DNA of 64,000 bases, taken from positions 7,923,845-7,987,844 of the forward strand of contig JAAFYY010000001.1 in NCBI GenBank assembly GCA_014284505.1, written 5' to 3'. This stretch comes from Streptacidiphilus sp. 4-A2. Its GTDB lineage: Bacteria; Actinomycetota; Actinomycetes; Streptomycetales; Streptomycetaceae. Of the stretch, positions 851-42,308 are shown piece by piece (the stretch's first letter is position 1; every line of letters starts with the position of its first letter). The position numbers and the translations under genes are program-made. A model generated the notes under the pieces. That model did not search any database and was not told the origin of the DNA. It worked only from the letters and a program-made list of their open reading frames with translations.

Positions 851-866
851 GACTAGAATTTCAGTC
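851..866. promoter_or_regulatory. Putative TetR operator, site 1
   Basis: The bases gactagaatttcagtc match 12 of the 14 fixed positions of GACTGAA-N2-TTCAGTC, the repeat found perfectly at 6456-6477. The only difference is an AG/GA swap in the left arm. The site ends 15 bases before the ATG of the TetR gene at 882, a typical autoregulation position. Confidence 0.55.
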
Positions 867-881
867 GGAGTGGGAGTGCCG

Positions 882-1474
882 ATGAGGGACGTGGCCGTGA
901 GCGACCGCAGGACAACGATGTTGCAGGCCGCCGCGCGGGTCATCGCGCGCCGGGGCGTGCGCGGGCTCCGGGTCGAGGAACTGGCGGCCGAGGCCGGGGT
1001 CTCCACCGCCCTCATCTACTACCACTTCAAGAACCGCACCGGGATCCTCCGGGCGACCCTGGAGTACATCAACGACCGGGCCGACCGCTACACCGCCGAG
1101 CGCGCCGAGGGAGCGCCCCCGCTCGACGCCAGGGGCGAGCTGGTGCAGACCCTGCTGCTCGAATTCCAGGACGCGCCGGAGGTGCGCGAGAACAGCATCG
1201 CCTGGGGGAGCTGCGGGCCAGCGCGGTCTTCGATCCGGAGCTGCGCGAGGACCTGGCGAAGTCGACGCTGGTGTGGGTCCAGGACGTCGCCGAACTGCTG
1301 GGCCAGGTCCACCCGATGGCCGGTGCGGCCGCCCTGGCCATGTCGGCCGAGCGGCTCACCGCGCTGGTGGAGGGCCTGAGCAGCCGCTGGCTCAGCGGCA
1401 GCCTGCCGCTCGTGCACGCCAGGGAGCTGACGGTGGGCGGGGTCGAAGCCGAGTTGCAGCGGCTCTCCGGGTGA
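882..1474 (+). CDS. TetR family transcriptional regulator (copy 1)
   Basis: About 197 aa. The N-terminal helix-turn-helix is clear ([19 protein letters not shown], then [15 protein letters not shown]), followed by an alpha-helical ligand domain ending [17 protein letters not shown] 882 is chosen; GTG 891 is possible. The frame breaks near 1205, where tggggga needs one more G to continue as AWGELRAS. It is a close paralogue of the regulator at 6517-7094, with nearly the same recognition helix, so both should bind the same operator; one copy lies just upstream at 851. It is convergent with ureC. The inducing ligand is unknown; a guanidino or polyamine compound would fit the neighbours. Confidence 0.85.
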
Positions 1475-1490
1475 CTCCGGTGGGTGGGGG

Positions 1491-3240
1491 TCAGAGGAAG
1501 TAGAGGCGGCTGAGGGAGACGGTGTCGGCGGGTTGGGAGATGAGGGGTTCTCCGTCGAGGGTGACGAGTCCGGTGTGGGTGTTGACGTCGACGTGTCCGG
1601 TGCGGGTGTTGCGGATCATGTTGTGGGGGCCGATGCCGCGGGTGTTGCGGACGGGGACGCGGCGGCGGCGGGTGGGGAGTTGGTCGCCGTTGTCGATGGC
1701 GGCTTGGGCGACGAAGGCGACGGAGATGTCGGCGGGGGTGGTGCCGTGTGCGCCGAATTGTGGGCCGAGGATGAGGGGTTCGCAGCGGTCGGTGGAGGCG
1801 TTGGGGTCGCCGGTGACGCCGTAGGGGGAAGCCTGCTTTGAGGACGAGTTGGGGTTTGGCGCCGAAGTGGTCGGGGCGCCACAGGACGATGTCGGCGAGT
1901 TTGCCGGTTTCGATGGAGCCGATTTCGTGGGCGAGGCCGTGGGCGATGGCGGGGTTGATGGTGAGTTTGGCGATGTAGCGCAGGACGCGTTCGTTGTCGT
2001 CGCCGGTGTGGTTGTCGCCGTATCCGCCTTCGAGGGGCCGAGTTCGGTTTTCATTTTGCCGGCCATGGCGAAGGTGCGGCGGACGGTTTCGCCGGCGCGG
2101 CCCATGCCTTGGGCGTCGGAGGAGGTGATGCTGATGATGCCGAGGTCGTGGAGGATGTCTTCGGCGCCCATGGTTCCGGCGCGGATGCGGTCGCGGGCGA
2201 GGGCGGCGTCGCCGGGGAGGTCGGTTTTGAGGTCGTGGGCGGAGACGATCATGCCGAAGTGTTCGGCGAGGGCGTCGCGGCCGAAGGGGAGGGTGGGGTT
2301 GGTGGAGGAGCCGATGACGTTGGGGACGCCGGCCATTTTGAGGACGTTGGGGACGTGTCCGCCGCCGCAGCCTTCGATGTGGAAGGCGTGGATGGTGCGT
2401 CCTTGGAGGACGGCGAGGGTGTCTTCGACGGAGAGGCATTCGTTGAGGCCGTCGGTGTGCAGGGCGACTTGGACGTCGTGTTCTTCGGCGACGCGTAGGG
2501 CGGTGTCCAGGGCGCGGGTGTGGGCGCCCATGTCTTCGTGGACTTTGAAGCCGCTGGCGCCGCCTTCGGCGAGGGCTTGGGTGAGGGGTGCGGGGTGTGA
2601 GCTGGAGCCGCGGGCGAGGAAGCCGATGTTGACGGGCCAGGCGTCGAAGGCGTTGAAGGCGTGGCGCAGGGCCCAGGGGGAGTTGACGCCGACGCCCCAG
2701 ACGGGGCCGAATTCCTGGCCGATGATGGTGGTGGTGCCGGAGGCGAGGGAGGCTTCCATGATGCGGGGGGACAGGAGGTGGACGTGGGTGTCGATGGCGC
2801 CTGCGGTGGCGATGAGGCCTTCGCCGGAGATGATGGTGGTGCCGGTGCCGACGATGACGTCGATTCCGTGGAGGGTGTCGGGGTTTCCGGCGCGGCCGAT
2901 GGCGTGGATGCGGCCTTCGCGGATGCCGATGCTGGTTTTGCGGATGCCTTGGATGGCGTCGATGAGGGTGACGTTGGAGATGACCAGGTCGCAGGTGTCG
3001 TGGATGGCGGCGGCTTTGAGGTGGAGGCCGTCGCGGGCGGTTTTGCCGAAGCCGGCGAGGAATTCTTCGCCGGGTTGTTGTGAGTCGTTTTCGATGCGGA
3101 TGATGAGGCCGGAGTCGCCGAGGCGGATGCGGTCGCCGGTGCGGGGGCCGTGGACGGCGATGTAGTCGGGGGGTGATGGTGTTGGTGGGGGTGGCGGGGC
3201 GGCCGTGGCAGCCTTGGGCGTCGAAGCGGCTGGCGGTCAC
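1491..3240 (-). CDS. ureC: Urease alpha subunit-like amidohydrolase, divergent type
   Basis: Read across about three indels (near 3170, 2040 and 1840), the product is about 580 aa, close to the 567-573 aa of UreC. It starts at GTG 3240 and overlaps the ureAB stop by 4 bases. Nickel-site elements are present: HVH (DTHVHLLSP), the Lys that is carbamylated in ureases (GFKVHEDMG), [19 protein letters not shown] and the Asp in [10 protein letters not shown]. The flap reads [10 protein letters not shown] where typical ureases have MVCHHLD, so Cys becomes Ala and the second His becomes Asp, while the first His stays. The C-terminus has [14 protein letters not shown]. Codon use (GAA, CAA, AAA, GCA) is unlike all neighbours. 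No ureDEFG accessory genes are in the window. Ureolytic activity is plausible but unproven. Confidence 0.8.
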
Positions 3241-3940
3241 GGGGTGTCCTCCTGGTAGTGCGTCAGGTAGCCGGTGGCGCGGGCTTTTTGGAGTGCTGTG
3301 TCGCGGGCGCCGGGGGCGTCCAGGGGTCCGTCGACCAGTCCGGCGAAGCCGATGGCCACGCGGGCGCCGCCGATGGGCAGCAGGGCGACTTCGACCACGG
3401 CGCCCGCGTCGAAGCGGACCGAGGAGCCGGCCGGGACCGCCAGCCGCATGCCGTAGGCCAAGGCCCGGTCGAAGGCCAGCCGCGGGTTCGCCTCGAAGAA
3501 GTGGAAATGCGAGGTGACCGTGATCGGTACCGACGCGGTGTTCCGCACCGGCAGTACCAGCACGGGCTCGACCGGCTCGTAGCCCTCGCCCGCGCCGGGC
3601 AGCGCCGCGCCGGGGGCGTCCGGCCCAGCGACCCGCCCGGCCCGAACGGGGAGTCGATCACGCACAGCCGCGTCCCGTCGTCGAACACCGCCTCGACCTG
3701 GATCTGGGTGACGATGTCGGGGACGCCGGGCAGGACGTCGTCGGCGCTGAGCACGCTGCGTCCGGCCTCGACCGCCTCGGCCAGCCGGCGCCCGTCCCTG
3801 GCCGCCTCGCACACGGTGTCGGCGATCAACGCGGTCGCCTCGGGAACGTTCAGCCGCAGCCCGCGGGCGTGGCGGGAGCGGGCGAGTGTGGCGGCCGTGT
3901 GCAGCAGCAGCCGGTCCCGCTCGGTGGGTGTCAGTCGCAT
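3237..3940 (-). CDS. ureAB: Urease gamma-beta fusion subunit
   Basis: A single reading unit joins a gamma domain and a beta domain. The gamma part has [20 protein letters not shown], then [12 protein letters not shown] and a segment ending in [13 protein letters not shown]. The beta part has [33 protein letters not shown] and [10 protein letters not shown]. Gamma-beta fusions are known in several bacterial ureases. The frame breaks once in the linker, near 3620-3640. ATG 3940 is chosen because it begins the canonical gamma N-terminus. The gene lies 49 bases after a deiminase stop and its TGA overlaps the ureC GTG, so the four genes from 6368 to 1491 look like one operon. Codon use is ordinary (GAG, CAG), unlike ureC. 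Confidence 0.85.
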
Positions 3941-3989
3941 GGTGCCTCGTCCTGTGAGAAGGGGGGAAGCGTCGGCATGGTCTGTGCGG

Positions 3990-5166
3990 TCAGGCGGCGG
4001 GGGTGCCCGGCTGGTCATGGGTGGAGCAGTGGATCCCGCCGCCGCCGGAGGCGATGTTGTCGATGCTCAGCGCCACGATGTCGCGGTCCGGGAACTGCTC
4101 GCCGACGATCTTCTGAGCGGCGCTGTCGGCCGCGGTGTCGCCGAACTTGGGCATGAACACCGCCCCGTTGGCGACATAGAAGTTGATGTACGAGGAGACG
4201 AACGCGTCGCCGCTGCCGCTGATCCGGTCCGGGTCGGGCTGCGGCAGATCGATGACCTTCAGGGCGTTGCCCCGCGCGTCCCGGGCGGACTGAGCACCGT
4301 CGGGCCTGCGCGGAGGGACTGCGACCAGACGTCGGCGGGCGCACCCGGGAACGGCTGGTCCAGCAGCACCACCCCGGGGGCGACAAAGCGGGCCAGGCAG
4401 TCGACATGCGCGTCGGTGATGTCCTGGCCGCGCACCCCGGCCAGCCAGATCACCTTGGTGACGCCGAGGGCCTTCATCAGCTCGTCCTCGATGTCGTCCC
4501 GGCTCATCCCCGGATTGCGGTTGTCGTTGACCACCGAGCTCTCGGTGACCAGCAGCGTGCCCTGGCCGTCGGTTTCGAACGCGCCGCCCTCGGCGACGAC
4601 CGGTGTGCCGATCCGCGGAATCCGGTACTTGGCCAGGACGGCCGTCGCGAGCGCGGAGTCGTTCGCGTGCTCCTTCTGCTTGTTGCCCCAGCCGTTGAAG
4701 TTGAAGGTGACGCCCTTCAGGGTCCCGGAGTCGTGGACGAAGACCGGGAGCGTGTCGCGGGCCCACAGGTCGTCCACCGGCATGCTGACGACCTCCACGC
4801 CCGAGCCGCAGGCCTGCTGGGCCGCGTCCTCCTGGCCGGGCCGGGCGAACAGCACGACCGGTTCGTAGCCCGCGACCGCGCGCGCCAGCCCCGCGATGTC
4901 CTGGCGGACGCCGGGCAGCTGGTCGCCCCAGATGTCGCTGGAAGCGGGCCAGCACATGAAGGTGCGCGCATGCTTCTCCCATTCGGCGCCGAGGGTCCGC
5001 CCGGCGTCGCCGCCCCGGCCGGGGACGGGGCGCCAGCCGGGTCGGAGCTGTCGGGATCAGCCGAATCGTCCGGGGCGGCGGAGGAGCAGCCGGCGGCGCC
5101 GAGGGCGAGCAGGCCGACCCCGGCCAGCGACTGGAGCAGTGTGCGGCGGGAGGGGGAGAAGGGCAT
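3990..5166 (-). CDS. Exported agmatine deiminase-family lipoprotein (deiminase copy 1)
   Basis: About 390 aa across two indels (near 4985 and 4295). The N-terminus has a twin arginine, a hydrophobic core and a lipobox (RRTLLQSLAG, then LGAAGCSS), predicting Tat export and lipid anchoring. The mature domain has the porphyromonas-type deiminase fold: ARTFMCWP, DDLWARDTLP, NFNGWGNKQ, EGGAFETDGQGT, DAHVDCLARF and the catalytic Cys in GGGGIHCST. The usual RDTGP motif reads RDTLP here, with a Leu beside the substrate Asp loop. Agmatine deiminases convert agmatine to N-carbamoylputrescine and ammonia; the real substrate of this exported form is not known. It sits between deiminase copy 2 and ureAB on the same strand and is closest to copy 4. 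Confidence 0.85.
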
Positions 5167-5182
5167 GGCAGAACTCCGGGTG

Positions 5183-5242
5183 GTGCGGTGCGGTGCGGTG
5201 CGGTGCGGGCTGTGGGGCTGTGGGGCTGTGGGGCCTGTGGGG
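5183..5242. repeat. Short tandem repeats between two deiminase genes
   Basis: Five copies of GTGCG (5183-5207) run into four copies of CTGTGGGG (about 5210-5242, one spaced by an extra C). The block fills most of the gap between the stop of deiminase copy 2 and the start of copy 1, so it would lie in the untranslated mRNA just before the copy 1 start. Slippage here could change leader length. Confidence 0.8.
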
Positions 5243-5259
5243 TGGTGGGGTCCGCGGTT

Positions 5260-6368
5260 TCAGGGGAGCGGCTGGTGCATCGTGGAGCAGTGGATGCCGC
5301 CGCCTCCGGCCATCAGCCGGTCCACGTCGAGCTGGACGATCTGCCGTCCGGGAAGACGGCGGCCAGGGTGGTCCGGGCCGCGGCGTCCTTGGCCGGATCG
5401 CCGAACTGCGCGGTGATGACGGCGCCGTTGACGACATGGAAGTTGAGATAGGAGTCGACGAACGAGGAACTCCAGGAGCGGACCTTGTCCGGCCCGTCCA
5501 CCCGGACCACCTGGAGCGGCCGGCCCCGGGCGTCGGTTGGCGCGGGTCAGCAGGGCGAGCTGTTCGCGCGCGTCGGGCCCAGACGTCGTTGCGGTCCTGG
5601 GGCACCTGCACCATCACCACGCCGGGCGGATGAACCGGGAGGTGACGTCGATGTGGTTGTCGGTGAGTCGCGGCCCCTGACGCCCGGACCCAGAGCATCT
5701 TCCGGGCACCGTAGGCGTCGAGTACCGCGCGTCGATCTCGTCCGGCTCAGGCCGCGGTTGCGGTTCTTTGTTGACCAGGCTGCTCTCGGTGGCGAGCACG
5801 GTGCCGTCGCCGTCGGTCTCGATCGCGCCGCCCTCGCCGACGAAGGCGGCGGTACTGAAGGGGAGCCGCTTCATGGGCGCGCGACGGCGGCGGCGACCAG
5901 CCGGTCGCGGTCGTGGGTCTGCTTGTTGCCCCAGCCGTTGAAGCCGAGGCCGACGGTGTCCAGGCGGCCCGCCCCGGCGCGGCGGAACACCGGGCCGGTG
6001 TCCCGCATCCACAGGTCGTCGACCGGGATCGAGGCGGTGACCTCGACCGCCGGCCCGCAGGCGACCCGGGCGGCGGCCGCGGCGGACTCGTCGGCGGCGC
6101 ACATCAGCACCGGCTCGAACTGGGCGATGTTCACCGCGATCAGGGCGATGTCCTGCTGCACCCCGCGCAGCTTCCGGCCCCAGACCGTTCTTCGAGGACG
6201 GCCAGGACATCCAGGTGCGTGCGTGCGGCACCTCGTCCCGGTCCACCCACGGCCGGTTCGGGTCCGGCTCGTCCGCGATCGCCCCGGGGCCGTGGTGTCC
6301 GGGGCCGGCTCGGGGGCCCCGAGGATGCGGCTCACCAGGGAGCGCCGGGCGGGAGGGGAATCGTTCAT
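5260..6368 (-). CDS. Agmatine deiminase-family protein (deiminase copy 2), heavily frame-disrupted
   Basis: All family blocks can be found, but in shifting frames: HARTWMSWP, KLRGVQQDIALIAVNIAQFE, DDLWMRDTGPVF, GFNGWGNKQTHD, EGGAIETDGDGT, DNHIDVTSRF, SSFVDSYLNFHVVNGA and GGGGIHCST with the catalytic Cys. At least six indels are needed, more than in neighbouring genes. The N-terminus has RRSLVSRILG but no clear hydrophobic core, so export is doubtful. ATG 6368 and TGA 5262-5260 bound the gene. It is closest to copy 5 (shared xVPHxRTWMxxP and GRKL blocks). It is the first gene of the deiminase-urease run, with a perfect TetR operator 88 bases upstream. It may be decaying, or the sequence may be poor here. 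Confidence 0.7.
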
Positions 6369-6455
6369 GAGCTCTCCAGATCAAGTGTCGTCCGGTCGGG
6401 CGCTGCGGGCGAACGCTCAGCGAGGGCGCTCCCTGGTCGACATTTCGAGTGTCGC

Positions 6456-6477
6456 ATTGACTGAAACTTCAGTCAAT
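6456..6477. promoter_or_regulatory. Putative TetR operator, site 2 (perfect inverted repeat)
   Basis: Arms ATTGACTGAA (6456-6465) and TTCAGTCAAT (6468-6477) are exact reverse complements separated by AC. It lies between the stop of TetR copy 2 and the ATG of deiminase copy 2 on the same strand, placing it at the promoter of the deiminase-deiminase-ureAB-ureC run. Confidence 0.75.
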
Positions 6478-6516
6478 GTCGCGGCGAAGGCTGCCCGCCC
6501 TGGCGCCGGCCCGTGC

Positions 6517-7094
6517 TCAGGGGCTCCCGAGCTCCACGTCGATCGCCTCCGCAGCAGCCGCCGGGCGTGTTCGAGCGGAGGGAGCCGCTGAGCCAGCGCT
6601 GGCTCAGCCCTTCCAGCAGCGCGGTGAGCCGTTCGGCCGCCGCCGCGTGGCCCGGCGCGGTGCCGCCGGGGTGGGCGCGGCCGATCAGGTCGGCGGTCCC
6701 GTGCACCCAGGTGAGCGTGGCCCTGGCGAGGTCCTCGCGGAGGTCTGGCTCGAACACGGCGCTGGCCCGCAGCTCGCCCCAGGCGGTGCTGTTCTCGCGG
6801 ACCTCCGCGTGTCCTGTAGTTCGAGCAGCAGCGCCTGTTCCAGTTCGGAGCGGGGGTGGGGGTGTCCGGCGGGCTGTCCCGCTCCGCGGTGTAGCGGTCC
6901 GCGCGGTCGCTGATGAACTCCAGCGTCCGGCGGAGGATCCCGGCCCGGTCGTCGAAGTGGTAGTAGATCAGCGCGACGGACACGCCCGCCTCGGCCGCGA
7001 GCTCGGCCACGCGCAGCCCGCGCACCCCGCGACGGGCGATGACGCGGGTGGCGGCCCTGAGTATCTCGGTTCGACGGTCTGGCACGGAGCACAC
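6517..7094 (-). CDS. TetR family transcriptional regulator (copy 2)
   Basis: About 192 aa. The N-terminal HTH ([19 protein letters not shown], then VALIYYHFDDRAGIL) is almost the same as in TetR copy 1 at 882, and the C-terminal block LLEGLSQRWLSGSL matches SSRWLSGSL there. GTG 7094 is chosen (GTG 7085 possible). Indels near 6830-6800 and 6590-6550 break the frame; the likely end is AIDVELGSP with TGA 6519-6517. It diverges from deiminase copy 3 across a 422-base region holding an operator, and another operator lies just downstream. It probably represses itself, the downstream deiminase-urease run and copy 3. Confidence 0.8.
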
Positions 7095-7235
7095 CCTAGC
7101 CGTCCGGCCGGATTTCCTGACTGCTCTTTCAGAATCCAGACAGCCGAGCCGCCGATGAGCCGGGTCTGCTCCGTCAATGTCCGCATTCGGAGCAAATAGC
7201 ACCGTGGTCCGCAGCGGGCAATGCGCTCCGGATGT

Positions 7236-7257
7236 ATTGACTGAAGTTTCAGTTCGA
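7236..7257. promoter_or_regulatory. Putative TetR operator, site 3
   Basis: ATTGACTGAA (7236-7245), GT spacer, then TTCAGTTCGA. The inner seven bases of each arm match site 2 with one mismatch; the outer right arm is degraded. It lies between divergent TetR copy 2 and deiminase copy 3, so it can control both. Confidence 0.65.
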
Positions 7258-7412
7258 TGCAAGATTCGGGTCACCACCGCTCCTGCCCGGGAGCGGGGGA
7301 CCTGTCCGGCCGCCGGCCCGACCCGCGCCGCCCGTCGTACCGGCGGGCTCCGCGCCCCGCCTCCGGACGGAGGTGCGTACCGCGACCGCCCTGCCCGGAG
7401 CCCCGGGACGCA

Positions 7413-7480: not shown

Positions 7481-7516
7481 ATCCGCACTGATGATCTGCA
7501 CAAGGGAAGAGCTGTC

Positions 7517-8525
7517 ATGACTCTGCGTATGCCTGCCGAGTGGACCGAGCACGAGCGCTGCCTGATGGCCTGGCCGACCCGGGCCGAGCTGTGGGGCGAG
7601 GAGGCGCTGGACCAGGCCCGGCACGAATACGCCCAGGTCGCGCGGGCCATCGCCGGGTTCGAGCCGGTGACCATGGTCGCCCTGCCCGGCCAGGGCGAGC
7701 AGGCCGCCGCCCTCTGCGGGGAGGGGTCGAGGTGGTCGAGCTGCCGATCGACGACTCGTGTTCCGCGACTCCGGGCCGATCTTCGTGCTCGGGCCGGACG
7801 GCGAGCGCGCCGGAGTGGACTTCCGCTTCAACTCCTGGGCGAGAAGCACTTCCCCTGGGACACGGACGACCGGATCAGCGCGGCGCTGCTGGAGCGGCTC
7901 GGGGTCCGGCGGATCGAGTCGGCGATGATCCTGGAGGGCGGCGCGATCACGGTCGACGGCGAGGGCACGCTGATCACCACCGAGCAGTGCTTGCTCAACC
8001 CCAACCGCAACCCGGGCCTGAACCGCGAGCAGATCGAGGCCGAGCTCAAGGCACGGCTCGGGGTCACCAAGGTGATCTGGCTGCCCTACGGCGGCTTGCT
8101 CGACACCGAGACCGACGGGCATGTCGACGGCGTCTGCGCCTTTGTCGCGCCCGGCCGGGTGGTGGTGCAGCTCCCCGGCGATCCGGAGCACCCCGACTTC
8201 GAGCGGATGCGTGCCAACCGGCCGTGCTGGAGGCGGCCACGGACGCCCGCGGACAGCGCCTGGAGATCATCGATCTGCCGCAGAGCGCGTTCGTGGACGT
8301 CGAGGGCAAGCACACCGAGGTGGGCTACCTCAACTTCTACATCGCCAACGGCGGGTCGTCGTCCCGGTCGCCGGGGTCCCCGAGGACGAGGGGGCGCTCG
8401 CCGTCATCGCCTCCGCGCTGCCCGGGCGCAAGGTCGTCGGTGTCCGCTCCCGGGTGATCGCCTTCGGCGGCGGCGGGGTCCACTGCATCACCCAGCAGGT
8501 GCCCGCCGCGCCCGCCGCCGGCTGA
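7517..8525 (+). CDS. aguA: Agmatine deiminase, cytoplasmic (deiminase copy 3)
   Basis: About 336 aa, the usual size of bacterial agmatine deiminase, with no signal peptide. It begins with the classical MPAEWTEHERCLMAWPTR block. Further motifs are FRDSGPIFV, EGGAITVDGEGT, NPNRNPGLNREQIE, DGHVDGVCAFV and the catalytic Cys in GGGGVHCITQQ. Four indels (near 7728, 7760, 8220 and 8355) split the frame. ATG 7517 follows a ribosome site GGGAAGAG. The reaction is agmatine to N-carbamoylputrescine and ammonia. Of the five copies this is the most canonical. An N-carbamoylputrescine amidase gene, the normal partner, is not in the window; an ABC transporter follows 134 bases downstream. Confidence 0.85.
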
Positions 8526-8659: not shown

Positions 8660-10322
8660 ATGCCCAGACACCTGCCCCGCTCCGCACCGGAACCACCGGC
8701 CCGCAGATCCCGCCGCCGGACGGCCGCGGTCTGCGTCGCCGCGGCCGCCGTGCTCGGCCTGTCCGCCGCCTGCGCCGGGCCGCCCGCACCACCGGGGCCG
8801 CCGACGCCGCCGCGTACAAGCTCTCCGCCACCACCCCGGCGGCCAAGGGGATCTCTCCTCCTTCAGCTGGGCGATGTACGCGGAGCCGCTGACCCTGGAC
8901 TACGCGATGGCCTTCGACTACCCGTCGAACACCATCCTGTCCAATGTCTGCGAGAGCCTGATGAAGTGGACGCCGCAGCTCAAGGAGGTCCCCGGGCTGG
9001 CGCAGCAGGCGCTCCACCCCGACCCGACCACCTGGGTCTACGACCTGCGCTCCGGCGTGCACTTCGACGACGGCAGCGTGATGACCGCCCAGGACGCGGT
9101 CTACAGCCTGGACCGGCAGCTGAACCCCAGGATCGGCGCGGCCTGGGCCGGGGTCTTCCAGAACGTCGCCTCGATCACCGCCACCGGCCCGCTCCAGGTG
9201 ACGGTGAAGCTGAAGTCGCCGGACGCGCTCTTCCCGCAGTACATGGCGACCGCCGCGGGCGTGGTGGCCAGCGAGAAGGGGATCAAGGCGGCCGGCGCCA
9301 AGGGCACCAGCACCCTGGACTGCACCGGGCCGTACAAGCTCGGCGCCTGGGACAGGGGCAGTCGCTGGAGCTGGACCGGTTCGCGGACTACTGGGGGACC
9401 CGGCCAAGTCCGCCAAGGTGGTCTTCGACTTCCTCACCGACCCCTCGGCACGCACCAACGCGATGCTCACCGGGGCCGTCGACGGCGGCTATCTGATCCC
9501 GACCGAGAGCTACCAGCGGCTGCGCGACAGCGGCGTGGGCACCCTGTACTTCGGCGAGAGCCTGAGCACCGTCAACGTCAACATCACCAATATGAAGGGC
9601 GTGCTCGGCGACGCCCGGGTGCGGCAGGCGCTGTCGCTGGCGCTGGACCGGGCGGGCTTCGTCAAGCAGGGGCTGGCCGGCAACGGCCAGGTCACCAATG
9701 CGCTCACCGACCGGGCCGCCTGGCCCGGCGCCTCCGCCGACACGCTGAAGACCGCCTTCGACGACCTGCCCTCCACCACGCCCGACCTGGCCAGGGCCAG
9801 GCAGCTGATCAAGGAGGCGGGCGCGACCGGCAAGACGGTCACCGTCGCCACCAGTGCGATCGGCCAGGACGTCTCGCTGCTGGCCACCGCCGTCCAGGCG
9901 GCAGGCACCGAGATCGGGCTGAACGTCGAGGTGAAGACCATCGCCCCGGACGCCTTCTCGGCGCTGTTCACCGACCCCCAGGCCCGCCAGGGATCGACAT
10001 GTTCCCGGAGACCTACTACCTCTCCGTCACCGACCCGATGGACCTGCTCGCCAACTTCCAGACCGGCAACTACCAGAACTACTCCGGCTACAGCAATCCG
10101 GCCTACGACAAGCTGGTCCAGCAGGCGACCGCCACCGACGACCAGGCCCAGCGGCTGGCGATCGAGGCGAAGATCCAGCAGATCGCCGTGGACCAGAACC
10201 TGTGGATCCCGGTCGCCAACTGGCCGGACGCGCTGTTCATGAACAAGCGGATCACCGGCGCGCCGACCACCATCTCCTACCTGTACTACCCCTGGGCCGC
10301 CGATGTCGGGGCCGCGAGATGA
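8660..10322 (+). CDS. ABC transporter substrate-binding lipoprotein, peptide/nickel family (SBP_bac_5)
   Basis: About 550 aa across indels near 8840, 9360, 9405 and 9990. The N-terminus is a signal peptide with a lipobox-like LGLSAACAG. The family pattern is clear: VCESLMKWTPQLKEVPGLAQ, WVYDLRSGVHFDDGS, AQDAVYSLDRQL and a late block DPMDLLANFQTG. Such proteins bind peptides, opines or other polar ligands outside the membrane. Its stop overlaps the next gene start by 4 bases (ATGA), and four transporter genes follow the same way. Placement between deiminases suggests a guanidino or arginine-containing ligand, but that is inference. Three direct repeats of a CACGAAAG-like 8-mer lie just before the start. 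Confidence 0.88.
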
Positions 10323-11269
10323 CCTTCCTGCGCTTCGCCCTGCGGCGGCGGGAGATGGCCGCGACCCTGCTCGCCGCCTCGTTCCTGATCTTCGGAGCGA
10401 TGTACCTGGCCCGGGCAACCCGGCCAGCTTCCTGCTCTCCGGACGCTCCGCCTCCCCGCAGGCACTGCGGGCCATCAGCGCCGAGTACCACCTGAACCAG
10501 CCGTTCGCGGTGCAGTACCTGCGCTGGCTCGGCCAGGTGCTGCAAGGCGACTTCGGCCGCTCCATCGAGTACCGCACCCCGGTGTCCACCCTGCTCGGGG
10601 CGCGGCTGCCGAGCACCCTGCTGGTGGGCCATGGCCCTGGTGCTGGTACTGGTCGTCGGCCTGCTGCTCGGCTGGACCAGCGCGGTGCGCGGCGGGGCCA
10701 CCGACTCGGCCATCCTGGTCGCCACCACCTTCGCGGTGGGCACCCCTCCTTTGTCGCGGCCGTGCTGCTGCAAGGGCTGTTCTCGGTCAAGCTGGGCTGG
10801 TTCCCAGCAGCGGCAGCGGCAGCGGGCTCGCCTCGATGCTGTGGCACCTCACCCTCCCGGCGCTGGCGCTGGCGCTCTACCTGATCGGCATGCTCGCCCG
10901 GGTCACCCGCAGCGCCATGCTGGAGGTCATGGGCCAGGAACACGTCACCGTGGCCCGCAGCCGGGGGGTGTCCGAGCGGCAGGTGGTCCGCCGCCATGTC
11001 TTCCGCAACACCCTCGGCACGGTGCTCACCATGGGCGGACTGATCGTCTCCACCCTGCTCATCTGCACCGTCCTGGTGGAGACGCCTTCAGCGTCAACGG
11101 CATCGGGCAACTGCTCGACCTGTCCACCACCACCAAGGACTTCCCCGTGGTCCAGGCCATCTCGCTGATCATCGTCGGGATCTTCATGCTGGTGAACCTG
11201 GTCGTCGACCTGCTGCTCCCGCTGGTCGACCCCCGGGTCACCCTCGGTACGAGAGGAGCGGCCGCATGA
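10319..11269 (+). CDS. ABC transporter permease, DppB type
   Basis: About 317 aa across five indels, mostly in G/C runs. It starts with MTFLRFALRRREMAATLLAA and a first membrane segment. It has the DppB-type periplasmic segment (YHLNQPFAVQYLRWLGQVLQ, then GDFGRSI), several membrane helices and the cytoplasmic loop RSAMLEVMGQEHVTVARSRG that contacts the ATPase. It ends LLLPLVDPRVTLG, as such permeases do. It overlaps both neighbours by ATGA, so it is translationally coupled in the transporter operon. Confidence 0.88.
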
Positions 11270-12117
11270 CCACCGCACTCCTGCGCCGACCCGGCCTCGC
11301 CCGGATCCGTACCCGCAGCCCCTGGCTCTACCTGCTCTGCCTCGGCTTCCTCGCCGTCGTCGTGCTGCTGGCGCTGCTCGCGCCCTGGCTCTCCCCGCAC
11401 GACCCCAATGCCGTGGACCTCGGCAACGCCCTCGCCGGGCCCTCCGGCACCCACCCGCTGGGTGTCGACGGCTCCGGCCGGGACACCGCCTCCCGGCTGA
11501 TCACCGGCGCCCGCACCTCGCTGCTCGGCCCGCTGGGCGTGGTGGTGTTCTCCACCGTCGCCGGGTCGTCGGCATCGCAGCCGGCTGGCGCGCGGCGGCT
11601 GGCTGGACTCACTGCTCTCCCGCACCACCGAACTGGCCTTCGCCTTCCCGGGACTGCTGCTGGCGATCCTGATCGTCTCGATCTACGGGGAGGGACTCAC
11701 CGCCCCGGCGCTCGCCCTCGGTGTCGCCTATCTGCCCTATGTCAGCCGGCTCACCCGTTCGCTGGTCCTCGCCGAGCGCGAGCGCCCCTATGTCGAGGCG
11801 TACCAGGTGCAGGGCCACTCCGGGGTGCAGATCTGCCTGCGCCATGTGCTCCCCAATATCGCCCCGGTGGTGCTGGCGCAGTCCACCATCAACTTCGGCT
11901 ACGCCCTGATCGACCTGGCCGGCCTGTCCTTCCTCGGCCTCGGCGTGCCGGCGCTGACCCCCGACTGGGGCCGGATGGTCTTCGACGGGGAACCGCCATC
12001 CAGTCCGGCTATCCGCTGTCCGCGATCCTGCCCTGTGCGGCGATCGTGCTGACCGTGGTCGCCTTCAACGTCGTCGGCGAGCGCTGGGCCGACCAGGTCG
12101 CCCGGAGGGACCGATGA
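11266..12117 (+). CDS. ABC transporter permease, DppC type
   Basis: About 284 aa with indels near 11563 and 11990. Features are one N-terminal membrane helix, the DppC block SPHDPNAVDLGNALAGPS, then THPLGVDGSGRD, and the ATPase-contact loop ERPYVEAYQVQGHSGVQICL. Next is HVLPNIAPVVLAQSTINFGY with ALIDLAGLSFLGLG. It pairs with the DppB-type permease just upstream. It overlaps the neighbours by ATGA on both sides. Confidence 0.88.
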   Translation: MTTALLRRPGLARIRTRSPWLYLLCLGFLAVVVLLALLAPWLSPHDPNAVDLGNALAGPSGTHPLGVDGSGRDTASRLITGARTSLLGPLGVVVFSTVAGSSASQPAGARRLAGLTALPHHRTGLRLPGTAAGDPDRLDLRGGTHRPGARPRCRLSALCQPAHPFAGPRRARAPLCRGVPGAGPLRGADLPAPCAPQYRPGGAGAVHHQLRLRPDRPGRPVLPRPRRAGADPRLGPDGLRRGTAIQSGYPLSAILPCAAIVLTVVAFNVVGERWADQVARRDR

Positions 12118-13992
12118 CCGACACCCTCGACATCCAGGGGCTGCGCCTGCGGCTGCCCGGCGCCGCCCGCCCGGTCCTGGCCGGGGTCGACCTCACCGTC
12201 GCCGAGCGGGAGACCGTCGCGCTGGTCGGCGAGTCGGGCTCCGGCAAGAGCCTCACCTCGCGCAGCGTGCTGCGACTGCTGCCCCCGGGCGCCACCACCG
12301 AGGGCACCGTCAGCGTCCAGGGGCAGGACGTGCTGGCCATGGACACCGGGCAGCTGCGGCAGCTGCGGACGCACACCGCGGCGATGATCTTCCAGGACCC
12401 CGGGCCGCGATCAATCCGCTGCGCCGGATCGGTGACTTCCTCACCGAGAGCCTGCGGCTGAACGCCGGCATGCCCGCCGAGGCCGCCGACCGGCGCGCCG
12501 CGGAGATGCTGGACGCCGTCGGGCTCGGCGACCGGGCGCTGCGGCAGTACCCGGGACAGCTGTCCGGCGGCATGCTGCAACGCGTCATGATCGCCGCGGC
12601 GCTGATGGGCGACCCCGCACTGATCCTCGCCGACGAGCCGACCACGGCGCTGGACGTGACCACCCAGGCCGAGGTCGTCGGACTCCTGGACGACCTGCGG
12701 GAACGTTTCGGCACCGGTCTGCTCTTTGTCACCCACGACCTCGGCCTGGCCGCGGCCATCAGCGACCGGGTCTATGTGATGTACGCCGGGCGGATCGCCG
12801 AGACCGGTCCGTCCGGCGCGCTGTTCGACCGGCCGCGCCACCCCTACACCGCCGCGCTGCTGCGGTCGACACCCCGGCTGGACGCCCCGCGGGGCCGACT
12901 GGCCGCGATCGAGGGGCAGCCGCCCAGCCTGCGCGAGGAACTGACGGGCTGCCCGTTCGCCGCGCGCTGCCCCTTCGCCGTGCAGCTGTGCGCCGAGGAG
13001 CTCCCGCCGCAGCTGCCGGTGCCCGGCGAGCCGGACCGCCTGGTCGCCTGTCACCGTGCCGACGAGCTCGCCGACCGGCTCGCGGGAGCACCAGCCATGA
13101 GTGAGACCACCCCGAAAGGAGCAGCGGCCGTGGACCGGACAGTGCTGGAGCAGACGGTGCCGGAGCAGACGGTGCTGGAGGTGGCCGGGCTGCACCGGGC
13201 CTTCGGCAGCGTGCGGGCGGTCGACGACGTCTCGTTCAGCCTGGCCAGAGGCGGATCGCTGGGCATTGTGGGGGAGTCCGGATCGGGCAAGACCACCACC
13301 GCGCGGATCATCGTCGGGCTGGAGCGCGCCGACTCGGGGCAGGTGCTGGTGCACGGCCGGGACCGCTTCGCCCCGGCGGAGCACGGCCGCTTCGGCCTCG
13401 CGGGCGGGGGCCGGGCGAAGCGGCTGGCCCGGGCCCGCGAGGTGCAGATGGTCTTCCAGGACCCCTTCCTCTCGCTCGACCCGCGCACCAGCGTCGACAG
13501 CGTGCTGCGGGAGACCCTGCGGCTGCACTTTCCCGAGTCCCGGGCCGACCACGCCCGCCGCGTCGGCGAGCTGCTGGACCAGGTCGGCCTCGGCGCCGCG
13601 AGGCCGACGCCCTGCCCCGGCAGCTCTCCGGCGGCCAGCGCCAGCGCGTGGCGATCGCCCGCGCGCTGGCGGTCGAACCGGCGGTCCTGGTGCTGGACGA
13701 GGCGGTGGCCGCGCTCGACGTGTCGGTGCAGGCGCAGATCCTCAACCTGCTGGCCGACATCCGCCAGGAGACCGGCATCGGCTATCTGTTCATCACCCAT
13801 GACCTGGGCGTCGTGCGGTGCGTCACCGACGAGGTGGTGGTCATGCGACACGGACGGATCGTGGAGGCCGGAGACACCGGGACCGTCCTGGCCGACCCGC
13901 AGCACGCGTACACCCGGCTGCTGCTGGACTCGGTCCCCCAGCCCGGCTGGGACCCCAAGCGCATCGCCGCCGCCCGCCGCGCGCTGTGCTGA
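12114..13992 (+). CDS. ABC transporter ATP-binding protein with two ATPase domains (DppD-DppF fusion)
   Basis: About 625 aa. Domain 1 has Walker A GESGSGKS, signature LSGGMLQRV, Walker [13 protein letters not shown] and the C-terminal Cys cluster [14 protein letters not shown] typical of DppD. Domain 2 has Walker [10 protein letters not shown], signature [12 protein letters not shown], Walker [13 protein letters not shown] and H-loop FITHDLG. Indels lie near 12410 and 13600. Between domains the frame stays open through ATG 13097 ([12 protein letters not shown]), with no stop. All other junctions in this operon are ATGA overlaps and this ATG also reads ATGAG, so a missed base could hide a split into two genes. 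Fused pairs of this kind exist in actinomycetes. Confidence 0.85.
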
Positions 13993-14087
13993 CCGCGCTG
14001 TGCTGATCGGCTGGGTGACGCTCCGCCGGGGGCTCCGCCCGGATGGCCGAACAGCCCCGACAGGGCAGGGCAGGGGCAGGGGGGATA

Positions 14088-14105
14088 CTGGGGCAAAATC
14101 CCCAG
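14088..14105. other. Small hairpin in the leader of deiminase copy 4
   Basis: CTGGGG (14088-14093), loop caaaat, CCCCAG (14100-14105), starting 46 bases before ATG 14134, after a run of CAGGG/CAGGGG repeats (14060-14083). No match to the GACTGAA operator was seen in this 141-base gap. Confidence 0.35.
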
Positions 14106-14133
14106 AACTCCTCACTGCCACGATCGGGGTCCC

Positions 14134-15326
14134 ATGCACCTGTCCGGCCTGAGCCGACGCGGCCTGCTCCACGGCGGAGCCGGTCTCGCCGTGGCCGCCC
14201 TGGCCGGCTGCGGCTCCTCGGACACGGACAGCGGCGCCCCCGGCAGCGCGGCTCCCGCCGCTTCCGGGAGTGCCGCCCCGGCGCGGGCGGGAGCGGCAAC
14301 GCGATGCCCGCCGAATGGCTGGAGCACGAGCGCACCTTTATGGCCTGGCCGGCCCTGACCGAGGTATGGGGCGACCAACTGCCCGCCGTCCGCACCGACA
14401 TCGCCAACCTCGCCAAGGCAATCGCGCAGTACGAGCCGGTGGTGCTGATGGCCCGCCCGGACCAGTCCGACCAGGCCCAGCAGCAGTGCGGCAACGACGT
14501 CGAGGTGATCCAGCTCGCGGTCGACGACCTGTGGGCCCGCGACACCGGCCCCACCTTTGTCACCGGCCCGGCCGGGCTCGCCGGGGTGGACCTCAACTTC
14601 AACGGCTGGGGCAACAAGCAGACCCACGCGAATGACAGCCTGGTAGCCCGGAACCTGCTGGCCAGGTACCAGGTGCCGCGCATCCAGGCGCCGATCACCG
14701 GCGAGGGCGGCGCCATCGAGGTCGACGGCCAGGGCACCCTGATGGCGACCGAGAGCTCGCTGGTCAACCCCAACCGCAACCCCGGGCGCAGCCGCGACCA
14801 GATCGAGGCCGCGCTCAAGCAGCTCTTCGGCGTCCGTAAGGTCATCTGGTTCCAGGGCGTCGCGGGCAAGGACATCACCGACTGCCATGTCGACGCCCTC
14901 GCGCGCTTTGTGCAGCCCGGTGTCGTCACCCTCCACCGGCCCAACCCCGACAGCCCGCCCGACGTCTGGTCCGCCGCCTCCGACCAGGCGCTGTCGGTGC
15001 TGAAGCAGGCCACCGACGCCCAGGGGCGGAGCCTGCGCATCGTGGAGATCACCGAACCCGACTTCGACAAGATCCAGGCCACCAGCAGCGACTTCCTCGC
15101 CAGCTACATCAACTTCTACGTGCTCAACGGGGCCGTGATCGTCCCCCGCTTCGGCGACCAGAGCGCGGACGACAACGCCGCTTCCATCCTCGGCGACCTG
15201 CACCCGGGCCGCGACATCGTCCAGGTCTCCATCAATGCCATCGCCTCGGGCGGCGGCGGCATCCACTGCTCCACCCAGCAGCAGCCCAAGCTCGGCGCGG
15301 CCTCGCCGCAGGCCTCCGCCTCGTGA
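14134..15326 (+). CDS. Exported agmatine deiminase-family lipoprotein (deiminase copy 4)
   Basis: About 397 aa with one indel near 14290. The N-terminus (SRRGLLHGGAG, then LAGCGSS) is a Tat-type lipoprotein signal. The enzyme domain is complete: MPAEWLEHERTFMAWP, DDLWARDTGPTF, NFNGWGNKQTH, GEGGAIEVDGQGT, NPNRNPGRSRDQIE, DCHVDALARF, YINFYVLNGAVIVPRFGDQ and catalytic Cys in GGGGIHCSTQQ. It is the best preserved of the exported copies and resembles copy 1. ATG 14134 gives the full signal peptide. It follows the ABC ATPase by 141 bases and its stop overlaps the next gene's GTG, so it may be the last enzyme of the transporter run. Confidence 0.9.
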
Positions 15327-16233
15327 GCCCGGCGCGCCGCCTCGGGACGACGGCGCGCCGCCGCCTGCGGCTGAGGCTGCGGCATCCGCTGGTGCTGACC
15401 GTGCTCGTACTGGCGCTGTGCGGCGCCGGGGTGGGGCTCTATCTGAACGAACGCAACAGCCGCCAGCAGGTCACCGTCGTCGGCAACCCGACCGCGCCGG
15501 ACTGGATCGAACTCGACGTCACCGCCCAGGGGTGGACCCCTCGGCGCTGGAACTCTCGCTGTCCGTGGTGGCGATCCCGCACGGCAGCTTCGCGGCGGAG
15601 CCGGACTCACGGGTCTTCACCAAGGCCGTCGAGGTCACCACCGTCTCCCTGAGCACGACCACCTTCCACACCACGGCCGGCGAGCCCGCACCGCTCCAGG
15701 TGGTCAGCGCGGGCCTGTACAACGGCACCCCCACCGACTACCCCTTCGACGACTACGACACCTCGGTCGGCTGGGTCGCCTCGGTGAACGGCCAGGACGT
15801 GCCGCTGTCCGTCACCTTCAGCGACTCCGACCCGTTCTTCGTGGTGCGGCCGACCAGGACCGCGACCGCCGGGCAGGCCACCCTGATGGACGCCCGGGCC
15901 GGGCGTTCGCGTGCCACGTTCATCCTCGCCTGGTTCATGATGATCGCGATGTGGGCGCTGGCGCTGGCCGTCCTCGGCGGCGCCGAAGTCCTGGTGCGCC
16001 GCCGCCAGGGGATGATCTGGCCGGCCCTGGGCTGGATGGCGGCCACCCTCTTCGCCCTGGTCGGGCTGCGCAACGCGGCCCCCGGCAGCCCGCCGATCGG
16101 CTCGCTCATGGACTATGTCGCCTTCTTCTGGGCGGAGGGCATCATCGCCGCGAGCCTGGCCTGCGCCGCCGCCTTCGGCGTCCGCAACGAGCGCAGATCG
16201 CTGGCTGCGGAGAAGGCCGTGCCGCCGCCGTAG
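15323..16233 (+). CDS. DUF4436-type membrane protein
   Basis: About 303 aa with one indel near 15540. There is an N-terminal membrane segment (LVLTVLVLALCGAGVGLYL), an extracytoplasmic domain with the family-like block DYPFDDYDTSVGW, and three C-terminal membrane segments (from 15915 on). The layout matches actinobacterial DUF4436 proteins, whose function is unknown. GTG 15323 overlaps the stop of deiminase copy 4, so the two are probably co-translated. A role in the membrane beside the exported deiminase is possible but not shown. Confidence 0.7.
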
Positions 16234-16244
16234 CCCCCCTGCCC

Positions 16245-16320
16245 CGGGCCGCTCACCCCGGCCGCTCACCCCCGGCCGCTCACCCCCGGCCGCTCACCCG
16301 GGCCGCTCACCCCGGCCGCT
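16245..16320. repeat. Six tandem copies of a GGCCGCTCACCCC unit
   Basis: Copies 13-15 bases long, differing in C-run length, fill the space between the DUF4436 stop and the TetR copy 3 stop. The last copy reaches the TAA. The genes are convergent here, so the array could serve in termination; its single-strand pairing potential is weak apart from CCGGCC/GGCCGG. Confidence 0.8.
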
Positions 16321-16982
16321 TACGCAGGTGGCAGCCGGTCCGCGCCTGCCGCGAGGCCGAAGACCAGCGCGCGCACCACGGCCCGGGCGTCCACCTCCGA
16401 CCCCAGCGAGCGGATCGCCGCCAGCCCGTCCGCTGCGGCGGCCAGCGCCTCACCCAACGTCAGCGCGTCGACTGCCTCCACGCGTTCGACCGCGAGCACC
16501 CGGAACAGCTCGACAAAGCAGGCCCGCCAGCGCGCGTACTCCGCCTCGAGCGCCGCCCGTACCCGCTCGTCGGTCAGCGAGAACCAGTGCAGCGCCGAGT
16601 GCATCCGGGCGAGCCCCGCCGTCTCGGGCTGGGCCAGCAGCTCGACCACCCGCCCGGCGCGCTCCTCGAAGCCGCCGGGGGCGGCCACGGCCTGCTCCAT
16701 CGGCGTGATCCACTCCGAGCGGATGTCCTCGACCACGGCGACGATCAGATCCGTGCGGTCCTTGAAGTGGTAGTGGCACATCCCGTGCGTCACGCCCGCC
16801 GCAGCGGAGACATTGCGTGTGGTGAACGGGACGTCGTCGGCGCCCGCGAGCAGGCTCCGGGCGGCGGCGATCAGCCGGGCGCGGGTCTGTTCGCCCTTCG
16901 CGGAGACCCGGGGCTTCCGGGCCGCACCGACCGCACCCTGCTCCGCCCTGCCGCCGTCCCCCTGAGGTGCACCGACGCCCAT
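16320..16982 (-). CDS. TetR family transcriptional regulator (copy 3)
   Basis: 220 aa and intact. The HTH (FTTRNVSAAAGVTHGMCHYH, then FKDRTDLI) is different from copies 1 and 2, so it should read a different site. ATG 16982 is preceded by GGGAGG, which decides the start over upstream codons. It diverges from deiminase copy 5, with a palindrome between them. The ligand domain has no motif that names a ligand. Confidence 0.88.
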   Translation of the reverse strand: MGVGAPQGDGGRAEQGAVGAARKPRVSAKGEQTRARLIAAARSLLAGADDVPFTTRNVSAAAGVTHGMCHYHFKDRTDLIVAVVEDIRSEWITPMEQAVAAPGGFEERAGRVVELLAQPETAGLARMHSALHWFSLTDERVRAALEAEYARWRACFVELFRVLAVERVEAVDALTLGEALAAAADGLAAIRSLGSEVDARAVVRALVFGLAAGADRLPPA

Positions 16983-17068
16983 GCCCTTGCCTCCCGTAGC
17001 CACGCGCCCACCATAGCCACGCCGCTGGACGGCTGTGAGCGAACCCCGTCCGTTGCTGCGCAATGTAT

Positions 17069-17086
17069 TGACCGAGCGCATGGTCA
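17069..17086. promoter_or_regulatory. Putative operator for TetR copy 3, overlapping a -35-like element
   Basis: TGACC-N8-GGTCA with a palindromic GCGC core (17069-17086). The TTGACC at 17068-17073 resembles a -35 hexamer with TATAGC about 15 bases later. It lies in the divergent gap between TetR copy 3 and deiminase copy 5, and differs from the GACTGAA operator. Confidence 0.6.
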
Positions 17087-17148
17087 GTTATAGCTTCTCG
17101 GCAACCGCAACAGCGCAGCCGCGCCGCCCCAGCCAACGGAGGCCAATC

Positions 17149-18377
17149 ATGGACCGACACGGCAAAGCCGAGGACTCGCACGACCCCCTGAGCGCACTCC
17201 ACGCCCGCACCTTCGACCGTCGCCGCTTCCTGGCCGCCGCCGGGCTCACCGCCGCCGGCGCCACCGTCGCGGTGACCGGCCTCGGCACCGCCACCGCCCG
17301 CGCCGCTGCGGCCCGGGCCCTCCCGGTCGGCGCGCGCAGGGCCAACGCCACCGCCGCGACCGCAGGCAGCTTCGCCGTCCCGCTGGACAGCGTCCCGCAC
17401 ACCCGCACCTGGATGGCCTTTCCCGACAGCACCGCCATCTACGGTCGCAAGCTGTCCGGGATGCAGGCCAATATCGCGCTGATCGCCAACACCATCGCCG
17501 ACTACGAGCCGGTCTACCTGCTCGCCAACTCGGCCAGCGTCGCCACCGCCAAGCGGCTGTGCACCAACCCGAACGTCACGGTGATCGGCTCCATCCCGAT
17601 CAACGACTGCTGGATGCGCGACTCAGGACCGATCTTCCGCATCGACGGCAGCGGTGACCTCAACGCGATCGGGCTCAACTTCAACGGCTGGGGCAACAAG
17701 CAGGTCCACAACTACGACGCCCTGGTCGCGCAGCGCGTCGCCGCCTACCTCGGCGTCGGCTTCACCGCCGCCGGGCTGGTCAGCGAGGGCGGCGCCATCG
17801 AGACCGACGGCTCGGGCACCCTGATGGCTACCAAGAGCAGCATCATCAACTCCAACCGCAACCCGGGCATGTCCCAGGCCCAGATCGAGCAGGCCATGTG
17901 CGCGGCCTACGGGGCCTCGGAGGTCATCTGGTTCACCGGTATCAGCGGCCAGGACATCACCGACGACCACGTCGACGCGACCTCGCGCTTCCTCTACCCC
18001 GCGGCGGCCTGGTACAGACCCCCAACCCGGCCGACCCGGCGGACATCTGGTCCAACGACGAGAACCAGCAGTACCAGACCCTGTCCTCGGCGACCGACGC
18101 CGATGGCGACCCGATCGCCGTCACCGCCCTGGAATCGCCGGACTACAACAAGATCCGCGCCGCCAGCGCCGACTTCGTCGACTCCTACGCCAACTACTAC
18201 GTCTGCAACGGTGCCGTCATCTCCGCCCAGTTCGGCGACACCACCATGGACCGCAACGCCAAGGCCGTCCTGCAGAGCCTCTTCCCGGACCGCGACGTGA
18301 TCCAGCTCAACATCGACAACCTGGGCAACCAGGGCGGCGGCATCCACTGCGTCACCCAGCCCCAGCCGGCCGCGTAG
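17149..18377 (+). CDS. Secreted agmatine deiminase-family protein (deiminase copy 5)
   Basis: About 410 aa with one indel near 18005. The N-terminus has a Tat motif (DRRRFLAAAGLTAAGA) and a likely signal-peptidase site after TARA, with no lipobox, so it is probably released or wall-associated. Motifs: HTRTWMAFPDS, NDCWMRDSGPIF, NFNGWGNKQVH, SEGGAIETDGSGT, DDHVDATSRF, YANYYVCNGAVISAQFGD and catalytic Cys in QGGGIHCVT. The usual DDxW is NDCW here. It groups with copy 2. ATG 17149 has CGGAGG before it. It is the only copy under the third TetR, so its induction signal may differ from that of the others. Confidence 0.88.
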
Positions 18378-41216: not shown

Positions 41217-42282
<1,066 letters not shown>

Positions 42283-42308
42283 GCCATGCTCCTGTTCGTC
42301 CGCCGCTG

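Follow-up and report, generated by a model that had tools for sequence, protein, structure and literature searches.

Five agmatine deiminase-type paralogues and a divergent urease-like gene pair in Streptacidiphilus: a candidate route for guanidine nitrogen

Known systems and the island

The AguA/AguB route, in which a deiminase (AguA; TIGR03380) is paired with a C-N hydrolase (AguB; TIGR03381), is described in PMC9397018 and PMC3534580, and the latter also reports growth of an Arthrobacter on agmatine. A related gene set is found at positions 851-18377 of a 64,000-nucleotide stretch of Streptacidiphilus sp. 4-A2, referred to below as the window (C4:7923845-7987844 of genome G000, assembly GCA_014284505.1; 9.05 Mb, 4 contigs, 76.5% complete). 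This island contains five agmatine deiminase-type paralogues (PF04371), an ATP-binding cassette (ABC) importer with an SBP_bac_5 solute-binding protein (SBP), three TetR-type genes, a DUF4436 gene and a urease-like gene pair. It resembles AguA/AguB in its deiminase family, in its catalytic residues and in combining a deiminase and a C-N hydrolase, and AguB-type relatives occur in the corresponding operon of genus g14 and of Nonomuraea. Unlike AguA/AguB, it has five paralogues, of which three bear twin-arginine (Tat)-type signals; it also includes an ABC importer and an operator of its own, and a urease-like pair is present in place of AguB.

The urease-like pair shares its subunits, the fusion of A and B and its metal ligands with urease UreABC and with the ure(AB)C genes of Streptomyces coelicolor, which include SCO5526. 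It differs from urease in that its alpha subunit forms a separate clade (divergent UreC), its pocket motifs are changed and no accessory genes adjoin it in the loci read. A cluster of ure(AB)C only, free of accessory genes, has already been published for S. coelicolor and S. avermitilis (PMC2492869); the available parts of that paper make no mention of a link between ure(AB)C and a deiminase. Judging by the (AB)C-only layout, SCO5526 probably belongs to the divergent clade. The same tag is used for a different operon in PMC4991794.

Two further systems are comparable in part. The Porphyromonas peptidylarginine deiminase (PPAD) shares the Pfam family name and is secreted, as the exported deiminases of the island appear to be; the one secreted deiminase tested scores only 29 bits against the PPAD type. 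Nickel and oligopeptide importers (NikA, OppA, GsiB) have the same SBP_bac_5 domain and the usual set of permeases and ATPases, but the island SBP falls below every NCBIfam cut-off listed (best 114 bits). A search of openly licensed papers found no account of the island or of such a guanidine-nitrogen pathway.

Genes in the island were placed by tblastn with intact proteins of the same-genus relative G012 as queries, and families were assigned by a Pfam run on the G012 orthologues and a PF04371 search of the genome (gathering score 25). These assignments bear out an earlier note made from the window's letters, which had described five deiminase paralogues, a peptide-type ABC transporter and a urease. 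With its gene content, conserved catalytic residues, operator and association of divergent UreC with deiminases as the observed basis, the island is regarded here, with about even confidence, as a regulon that scavenges nitrogen from guanidino compounds, agmatine or similar amines being the most likely ones. Its last step would be the action of the divergent UreABC on a substituted urea.

A divergent UreC beside deiminases

The window's ureC (1491-3236, minus strand; placed by tblastn and alignment) encodes a divergent urease alpha subunit with the signature motifs of its clade. It is accompanied by a fused gamma/beta gene, ureAB (3249-3940, minus strand), which has a frame break near 3625 and whose orthologue carries PF00547 and PF00699. 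In G012 the orthologues have the UreA, UreB and UreC domains. The G012 divergent UreC scores 626 bits against the urease alpha equivalog TIGR01792, below its cut-off of 680, and exceeds that of the broader subfamily NF009686 (728 versus 354 bits).

Comparisons were made with a relatives set of 41 genomes and a class sample of 197 genomes that includes the window's own. In the relatives set, with several weak PF00449 matches below 32 bits set aside, canonical UreC scores 157-185 bits against PF00449 (40 copies) and divergent UreC 122-139 bits (27 copies, two from the window's genome). A PF04371 gene is found no more than 3 kb away from 25 of the 27 divergent copies, versus none of the 40 canonical copies. 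The two exceptions (G008 and G004) have the divergent gene on a contig other than that of the deiminases, and both genomes have a deiminase at a contig start. All 22 genomes with divergent UreC have PF04371; in eight more with PF04371 divergent UreC was not found. In the class sample PF04371 is present in 20/20 genomes with divergent UreC versus 20/177 without (Fisher 1e-16, relatedness ignored), and 16/20 divergent copies (the window's genome excluded) lie within 1 kb of a deiminase, as judged by eye.

In a tree, 23 divergent sequences including the window's form one group (support 100/100) apart from 12 canonical ones, and some long branches meet. The divergent proteins keep the metal-ligand and catalytic motifs, including those of the metal ligands, the carbamylated lysine and the catalytic histidine. 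The changes lie in the pocket: KIHEDWGA becomes KVHED[M/T/L]GA in 22/23 (one row unreadable), H[T/A]EGAGGGH becomes H[I/V]EGCGGGH in 23/23 and SSDSQAMGR becomes SSDAQGMGR in 23/23, with QAMGR present in 11/11 readable canonical rows and SSDAQAMGR in one canonical row. The flap cysteine is lost in 23/23 divergent rows and kept in 12/12 canonical ones. A third UreC type, on a very long branch, was seen in G024 (143 bits; L050:6158-7837), with amidohydrolase-like and transporter-like genes downstream, as read by eye.

The window's genome has a sixth PF04371 gene 3.5 Mb outside the window (C4:4473248-4474185) with its own ureABC copy. The window's ureABC block is 94.9% identical to this copy over 2475 bp and 96.4% identical to that of G012 over 2482 bp, whereas the deiminase pieces that can be aligned between the same paired loci are only 70% (161 bp) and 65% (770 bp) identical. 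The divergent UreABC is thus kept uniform, whereas the deiminases beside it differ.

Divergent UreABC (UreC 66-68% identical) was also observed inside a non-ribosomal peptide cluster on plasmids of three annotated Streptomycetaceae (L191, L192 and L193; NZ_CP109047.1, NZ_CP108786.1 and NZ_CP109401.1), together with an FkbM methyltransferase/non-ribosomal peptide synthetase, a condensation protein, a phosphotransferase, a protein with a weak B12-binding hit and a 2OG-Fe oxygenase. A fourth plasmid with divergent UreABC is unannotated (L194; NZ_CP109408.1). A urease-like complex serving as a tailoring enzyme would, to our knowledge, be new.

Hydrolases and transporters beside the deiminase

In the window's genus the divergent UreABC is encoded in the divergent operon behind deiminase C. 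The window holds no TIGR03381 match among the rows listed, as the earlier note had said of AguB, and the genome's best match (257 bits, below cut-off) lies 3.8 Mb away beside a gene that looks hydantoinase-like by eye. AguB sits in the corresponding operon of other genera: it is beside the deiminase in 5/5 island-bearing genomes of g14, and in Nonomuraea it stands between the deiminase and the SBP gene of the same operon. An exact exchange of AguB and UreABC in one slot was considered and dropped; UreABC lies on the other side of the deiminase, and only the operon is common.

Twenty deiminase neighbourhoods were read from class-sample genomes without divergent UreC. An AguB-like nitrilase is beside the deiminase in nine (L156, L157, L158, L165, L167, L169, L171, L172 [partial, at a contig end] and L174), and the neighbour resembles a single amidase family by sequence in six (L160, L161, L164, L168, L170 and L173; that of L168 was tested and matches PF01425 and NF005127). 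Among 156 loci with any hit, an AguB-type gene is found in 17 and UreC in 49, and no locus has both. A gene for an NCS1 permease is found with the deiminase in L164 and L168 (by sequence look; L168 tested), and with the pair of deiminase and divergent ureABC in L048, L062, L063, L065 and L075 of Streptomycetaceae (by sequence look; L062 tested). In G081 and G062 the divergent UreABC adjoins PotA- and PotD-like polyamine importer genes (proteins tested on L068), and a succinate-semialdehyde-dehydrogenase-like gene lies near it. Taken as a whole, these neighbourhoods suggest that the divergent UreABC plays the part beside the deiminase that AguB and the amidase play in other genomes.

It is unlikely that the divergent UreABC is a true urease, with some or all of the deiminases making urea from free or small guanidine before the urea is split. 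The metal ligands and catalytic histidine are kept, and the best NCBIfam name is urease alpha. Such a urease may need no accessory genes if its metal is iron, on the model of the second Helicobacter mustelae urease, which reportedly contains iron and has no accessory genes. Yet the flap cysteine is missing and SSDAQGMGR is present throughout the divergent clade, a canonical UreC with UreD, UreF and UreG is already encoded in the same genome, and the neighbours of the deiminase in other genomes are AguB or amidases, which act on ureido or amide bonds.

The accessory genes are evidence both ways. No ureDEFG genes were seen beside divergent UreC in the loci read. Eleven genomes have divergent UreC only, and eight of them (G127, G093, G062, G081, G099, G065, G215 and G232) are without UreD, UreF or UreG over cut-off, with a weak UreD in G127 and weak UreG matches in G127 and G065. 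In the other three (G028, G033 and G035) both UreD and UreF score over cut-off, a pattern expected of a nickel urease, which weighs against a substituted-urea hydrolase; their UreG is at, above or somewhat below cut-off. A stand-alone ureF-ureG-ureD group with no urease structural genes adjoining was observed in G033 (L184, G033:C1:6748000-6761000), and it may serve the divergent UreABC there.

Deiminases and their recurrence

Deiminase C (3990-5166, minus strand) and deiminase D (14134-15326, plus strand) begin with a twin-arginine motif followed by a lipobox-type cysteine, and deiminase E (17149-18377, plus strand) has a twin-arginine signal without a lipobox; no export signal was seen in the N-termini of deiminase A (7517-8525, plus strand) and deiminase B (about 5263-6368, minus strand; start read by eye). 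This reading of the N-termini by eye agrees with the earlier note, which had assigned Tat lipoprotein signals to C and D, a Tat signal to E and none to A. Genes of the tatA and tatC types, and a TatA/B-like one whose score equals the cut-off, are part of the G012 island as well (L020:9634-10742 and 1700-1993); tblastn found no convincing counterpart in the window.

The catalytic columns RD, E of EGG/EAG, RN, HxD and GGG.HC, which include the catalytic aspartate, glutamate, His-x-Asp and cysteine, are invariant in an alignment of 23 intact deiminases of relatives. The RD, EGG, HxD and GGG-HC motifs are present in B, C, D and E of the window, and the RD motif of A lies in a frame-broken stretch. 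The window genes and the relatives' orthologues of D, B, C and E score above the PF04371 gathering score. A recent tandem burst of five copies was rejected as their origin: rows outside D's class are 38-59% identical to D in the 23-row alignment, and the classes recur in other genera.

The closest solved relatives of the secreted deiminase tested are agmatine deiminases (224 bits). Agmatine is favoured as the substrate because of these relatives and because polyamine genes lie near the divergent UreABC. It is improbable that the secreted deiminases act, like PPAD, on arginine residues of peptides or on C-terminal arginine, with the importer taking up citrullinated peptides. An importer of the oligopeptide family and export-type signals on three of the five enzymes would suit such a role, but the same secreted deiminase is far closer to agmatine deiminases than to the PPAD type, and the ligands of SBP_bac_5 proteins also include nickel and opines, among other solutes.

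PF04371 is found in 40/197 genomes of the class sample, 33 of these with a single match (counted by eye), so that several copies are as unusual as the earlier note had held. In the relatives set it is found in 30/41 genomes. The note had made absence of the cluster from relatives one of its refuting cases; clustered deiminases are present in 6/13 same-genus (Streptacidiphilus) relatives (G003, G004, G006, G008, G010 and G012), and in G004, G006 and G012 a single cluster contains five. The remaining seven have one full gene each, with a short fragment in addition in G002 and a weak match below cut-off in G005.

A scan of named genomes with a C-type deiminase gave 542 confirmed loci, and the best 80 were read with up to 10 kb on each side, some being ended by the contig. 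They span Streptacidiphilus, Streptantibioticus, Kitasatospora, Streptomyces, Yinghuangia, Embleya, Amycolatopsis, Kutzneria, Kibdelosporangium, Nonomuraea and Microbacterium, and include a metagenome-assembled genome titled Renibacterium sp. At least two deiminase open reading frames (ORFs) are present in 45 of these 80 loci, a related TetR gene in 64, DUF4436 in 32, an SBP in 28, UreC in 15 and an AguB-like nitrilase in four (three of them weak).

Palindromic operator and predicted regulon

Seven aligned intergenic regions between TetR and deiminase A (the window and six same-genus relatives) share an invariant block with the palindrome ACTGAAGTTTCAGT. Exact matches to the pattern ACTGAANNTTCAGT number three in the 9.05 Mb genome, and two of these sites, both predicted operators, are inside the island. 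The first (ACTGAAACTTCAGT; 6460-6473, no strand assigned) is 92 bp upstream of the start of deiminase B; the second (ACTGAAGTTTCAGT; 7240-7253, no strand assigned) overlaps a TTGACT -35-like box, and its core is invariant in 7/7 aligned regions. The third site (C4:8770593) has no PF04371 match near it, and its neighbours look transporter-like by eye. A backwards-read control pattern is absent from this genome and matches once each in G011 and G016 among 27 further genomes.

All 14 of these 27 genomes that have the island contain one to three sites, 27 in total, none of them further than 1750 bp from a deiminase and 23 no more than 401 bp away; the 13 genomes without the island contain a single site, in G009. 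The 80 named loci hold 88 sites in 59 loci, versus a mean of 0.008 for 119 other half-site orders, and 73 of the 88 are no more than 450 bp from a deiminase start. There is no exact site in 21 of the 80 loci, nor was the exact pattern found in the generic deiminase-ureABC loci L044, L048, L049, L062, L063 and L065.

In the window, the site before B heads the genes for B, C, UreAB and divergent UreC, and the site before A heads those for A, the importer, D and DUF4436. Since the sites precede the B-C and A-D transcription units and none lies at E, co-regulation is predicted for four of the five deiminases, and the island looks like a regulon under a shared operator. The earlier note had staked its reading on co-regulation of the five, which this operator would bring about for all except E. 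TetR regulator 2 (6552-7085, minus strand) is a candidate repressor: its G012 counterpart (L020:1096-1665) carries the BetI-type C-terminal domain TetR_C_6, which, together with the conserved palindrome at the target promoters, is consistent with a TetR/BetI-type regulator.

TetR regulator 1 (897-1462, plus strand; frame break at about 1205-1214) matches two G012 TetR proteins by tblastn (67-82%), one of them a TetR_N/TetR_C_6 protein; its closest orthologue is L020:7443-8003. A weak operator-like site with two mismatches lies 5' of it (852-865, plus strand) and is not above chance by itself, 0.30 such sites being expected in the window. TetR-type regulator 3 (16332-16946, minus strand) is divergent from deiminase E. 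The three TetR regulators listed by the earlier note were thus all placed by tblastn; the orthologue of the third is just below the cut-offs of both TetR families (23.5 versus 24 and 21.9 versus 27).

Detoxification or inactivation of guanidino antibiotics or signals outside the cell is very improbable. The export signals of some enzymes, and their place in a predicted TetR regulon with very few sites, might suggest it, but the importer and the signal-less enzymes in the same operons suggest uptake and use, and none of the island genes that were placed encodes an efflux protein.

Importer and DUF4436

The importer genes follow deiminase A on the plus strand. They encode the SBP_bac_5 protein (8835-10319; N-terminus further upstream, with frame breaks), an OppB-like permease (10319-11266), an OppC-like permease (11266-12114), an ATPase with oligo_HPY (12114-13090) and a second ATPase (13166-13986), all placed by tblastn and assigned to families through their orthologues. 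Nickel import for a urease was rejected as the importer's purpose: the SBP scores 87 and 114 bits against NikA equivalogs with cut-offs of 393 and 600, and the same importer is present in g14 genomes that have AguB and no divergent UreC. An apparent second SBP_bac_5 importer operon at 41217-47458 of the window (SBP tested, PF00496; the rest by tblastn similarity) is seemingly unrelated to the island.

The DUF4436 membrane protein (15383-16218, plus strand; family through its orthologue) is frame-broken near its start. A model from a relative (L078:6597-7469; pLDDT 77) consists of a single helix, an outer beta domain and three further helices. Its best Foldseek matches in the PDB are Cys-loop receptors (rho1 GABA-A, E-value: 6e-8), but with a TM-score of only about 0.4 and an rmsd of about 10 A.

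State of the sequence

Frames are broken in all five window deiminases relative to the intact genes of relatives: at about 4290 and 5005-5086 in C, at several points in B, within A, near 18000 in E, and in D only between the signal and the enzyme, whose own frame is open. In the same window four ORFs share the coding sequence of ligA (56649-58808), a normally essential gene. Given this broken gene and an assembly that is only 76.5% complete, sequencing or assembly error is the likely source of these breaks rather than gene decay. An island of pseudogenes was accordingly judged unlikely, ligA being equally broken and the relatives' copies intact.

Proposed pathway

The pathway suggested by this gene arrangement is as follows. 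A BetI-type TetR would act at the palindrome TTGACTGAAwwTTCAGTCAA to repress the two divergent operons. Export by the Tat route would bring deiminases C, D and E outside the cell (C and D lipid-anchored), where they would convert guanidino into ureido groups and free ammonia, and the SBP_bac_5 importer would take in product or substrate. Cytosolic deiminase A, and perhaps B, would deiminate the remainder. The divergent UreABC would then hydrolyse the resulting N-substituted urea (N-carbamoylputrescine in the case of agmatine) to amine, CO2 and ammonia, which is the task of AguB elsewhere. The earlier note's scheme of deimination outside, import and recovery of ammonia inside fits the gene anatomy, except that it took the urease for ordinary ammonia recovery and the comparison suggests a divergent partner enzyme.

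The wider proposal is somewhat more tentative than the reading of the island as a regulon. It holds that the divergent UreABC is a new urease-fold hydrolase of N-substituted ureas that ends a deiminase pathway in Streptomycetaceae, can assemble where the usual accessory genes are absent and was co-opted by non-ribosomal peptide clusters as a tailoring enzyme, and that with the Tat-exported deiminases it makes up a surface-to-cytosol pathway for guanidine nitrogen.

Besides the retained ureD and ureF genes, several observations weigh against these proposals. Six of the relatives' deiminases score 216-354 bits and a seventh 250 bits against the AguA equivalog TIGR03380, below its cut-off of 381.8. 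Four of the 20 class-sample copies of divergent UreC lie away from the deiminase (G081, G062, G099 and G215), and no annotated deiminase stands beside the plasmid copies in 3/3 annotated records, whose gene tables may be incomplete. Neither AguB nor an amidase is beside the deiminase in five of the 20 neighbourhoods read (L159, L162, L163, L166 and L175). Among the 28 named loci with an SBP, 11 have UreC, one has AguB and 16 have neither within reach; in one locus (L077) the contig stops shortly after deiminase C. There is no operator site at deiminase E, which is accompanied by a divergent TetR-type gene of its own. In islands with neither hydrolase a generic copy elsewhere in the genome could serve; G016 has the island, and neither divergent UreC nor AguB was found in its genome.

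If the pathway is correct, part of the annotated "second ureases" of Streptomyces and its relatives, probably with the S. coelicolor ure(AB)C pair that includes SCO5526 among them, would be no ureases but the missing second step of agmatine-type catabolism, and annotation and nitrogen models would change in many species. The divergent UreABC would offer an enzyme of the urease fold whose maturation may not require nickel chaperones. One operator, and probably one TetR regulator, would give a regulatory handle towards the natural substrate of the exported deiminases.

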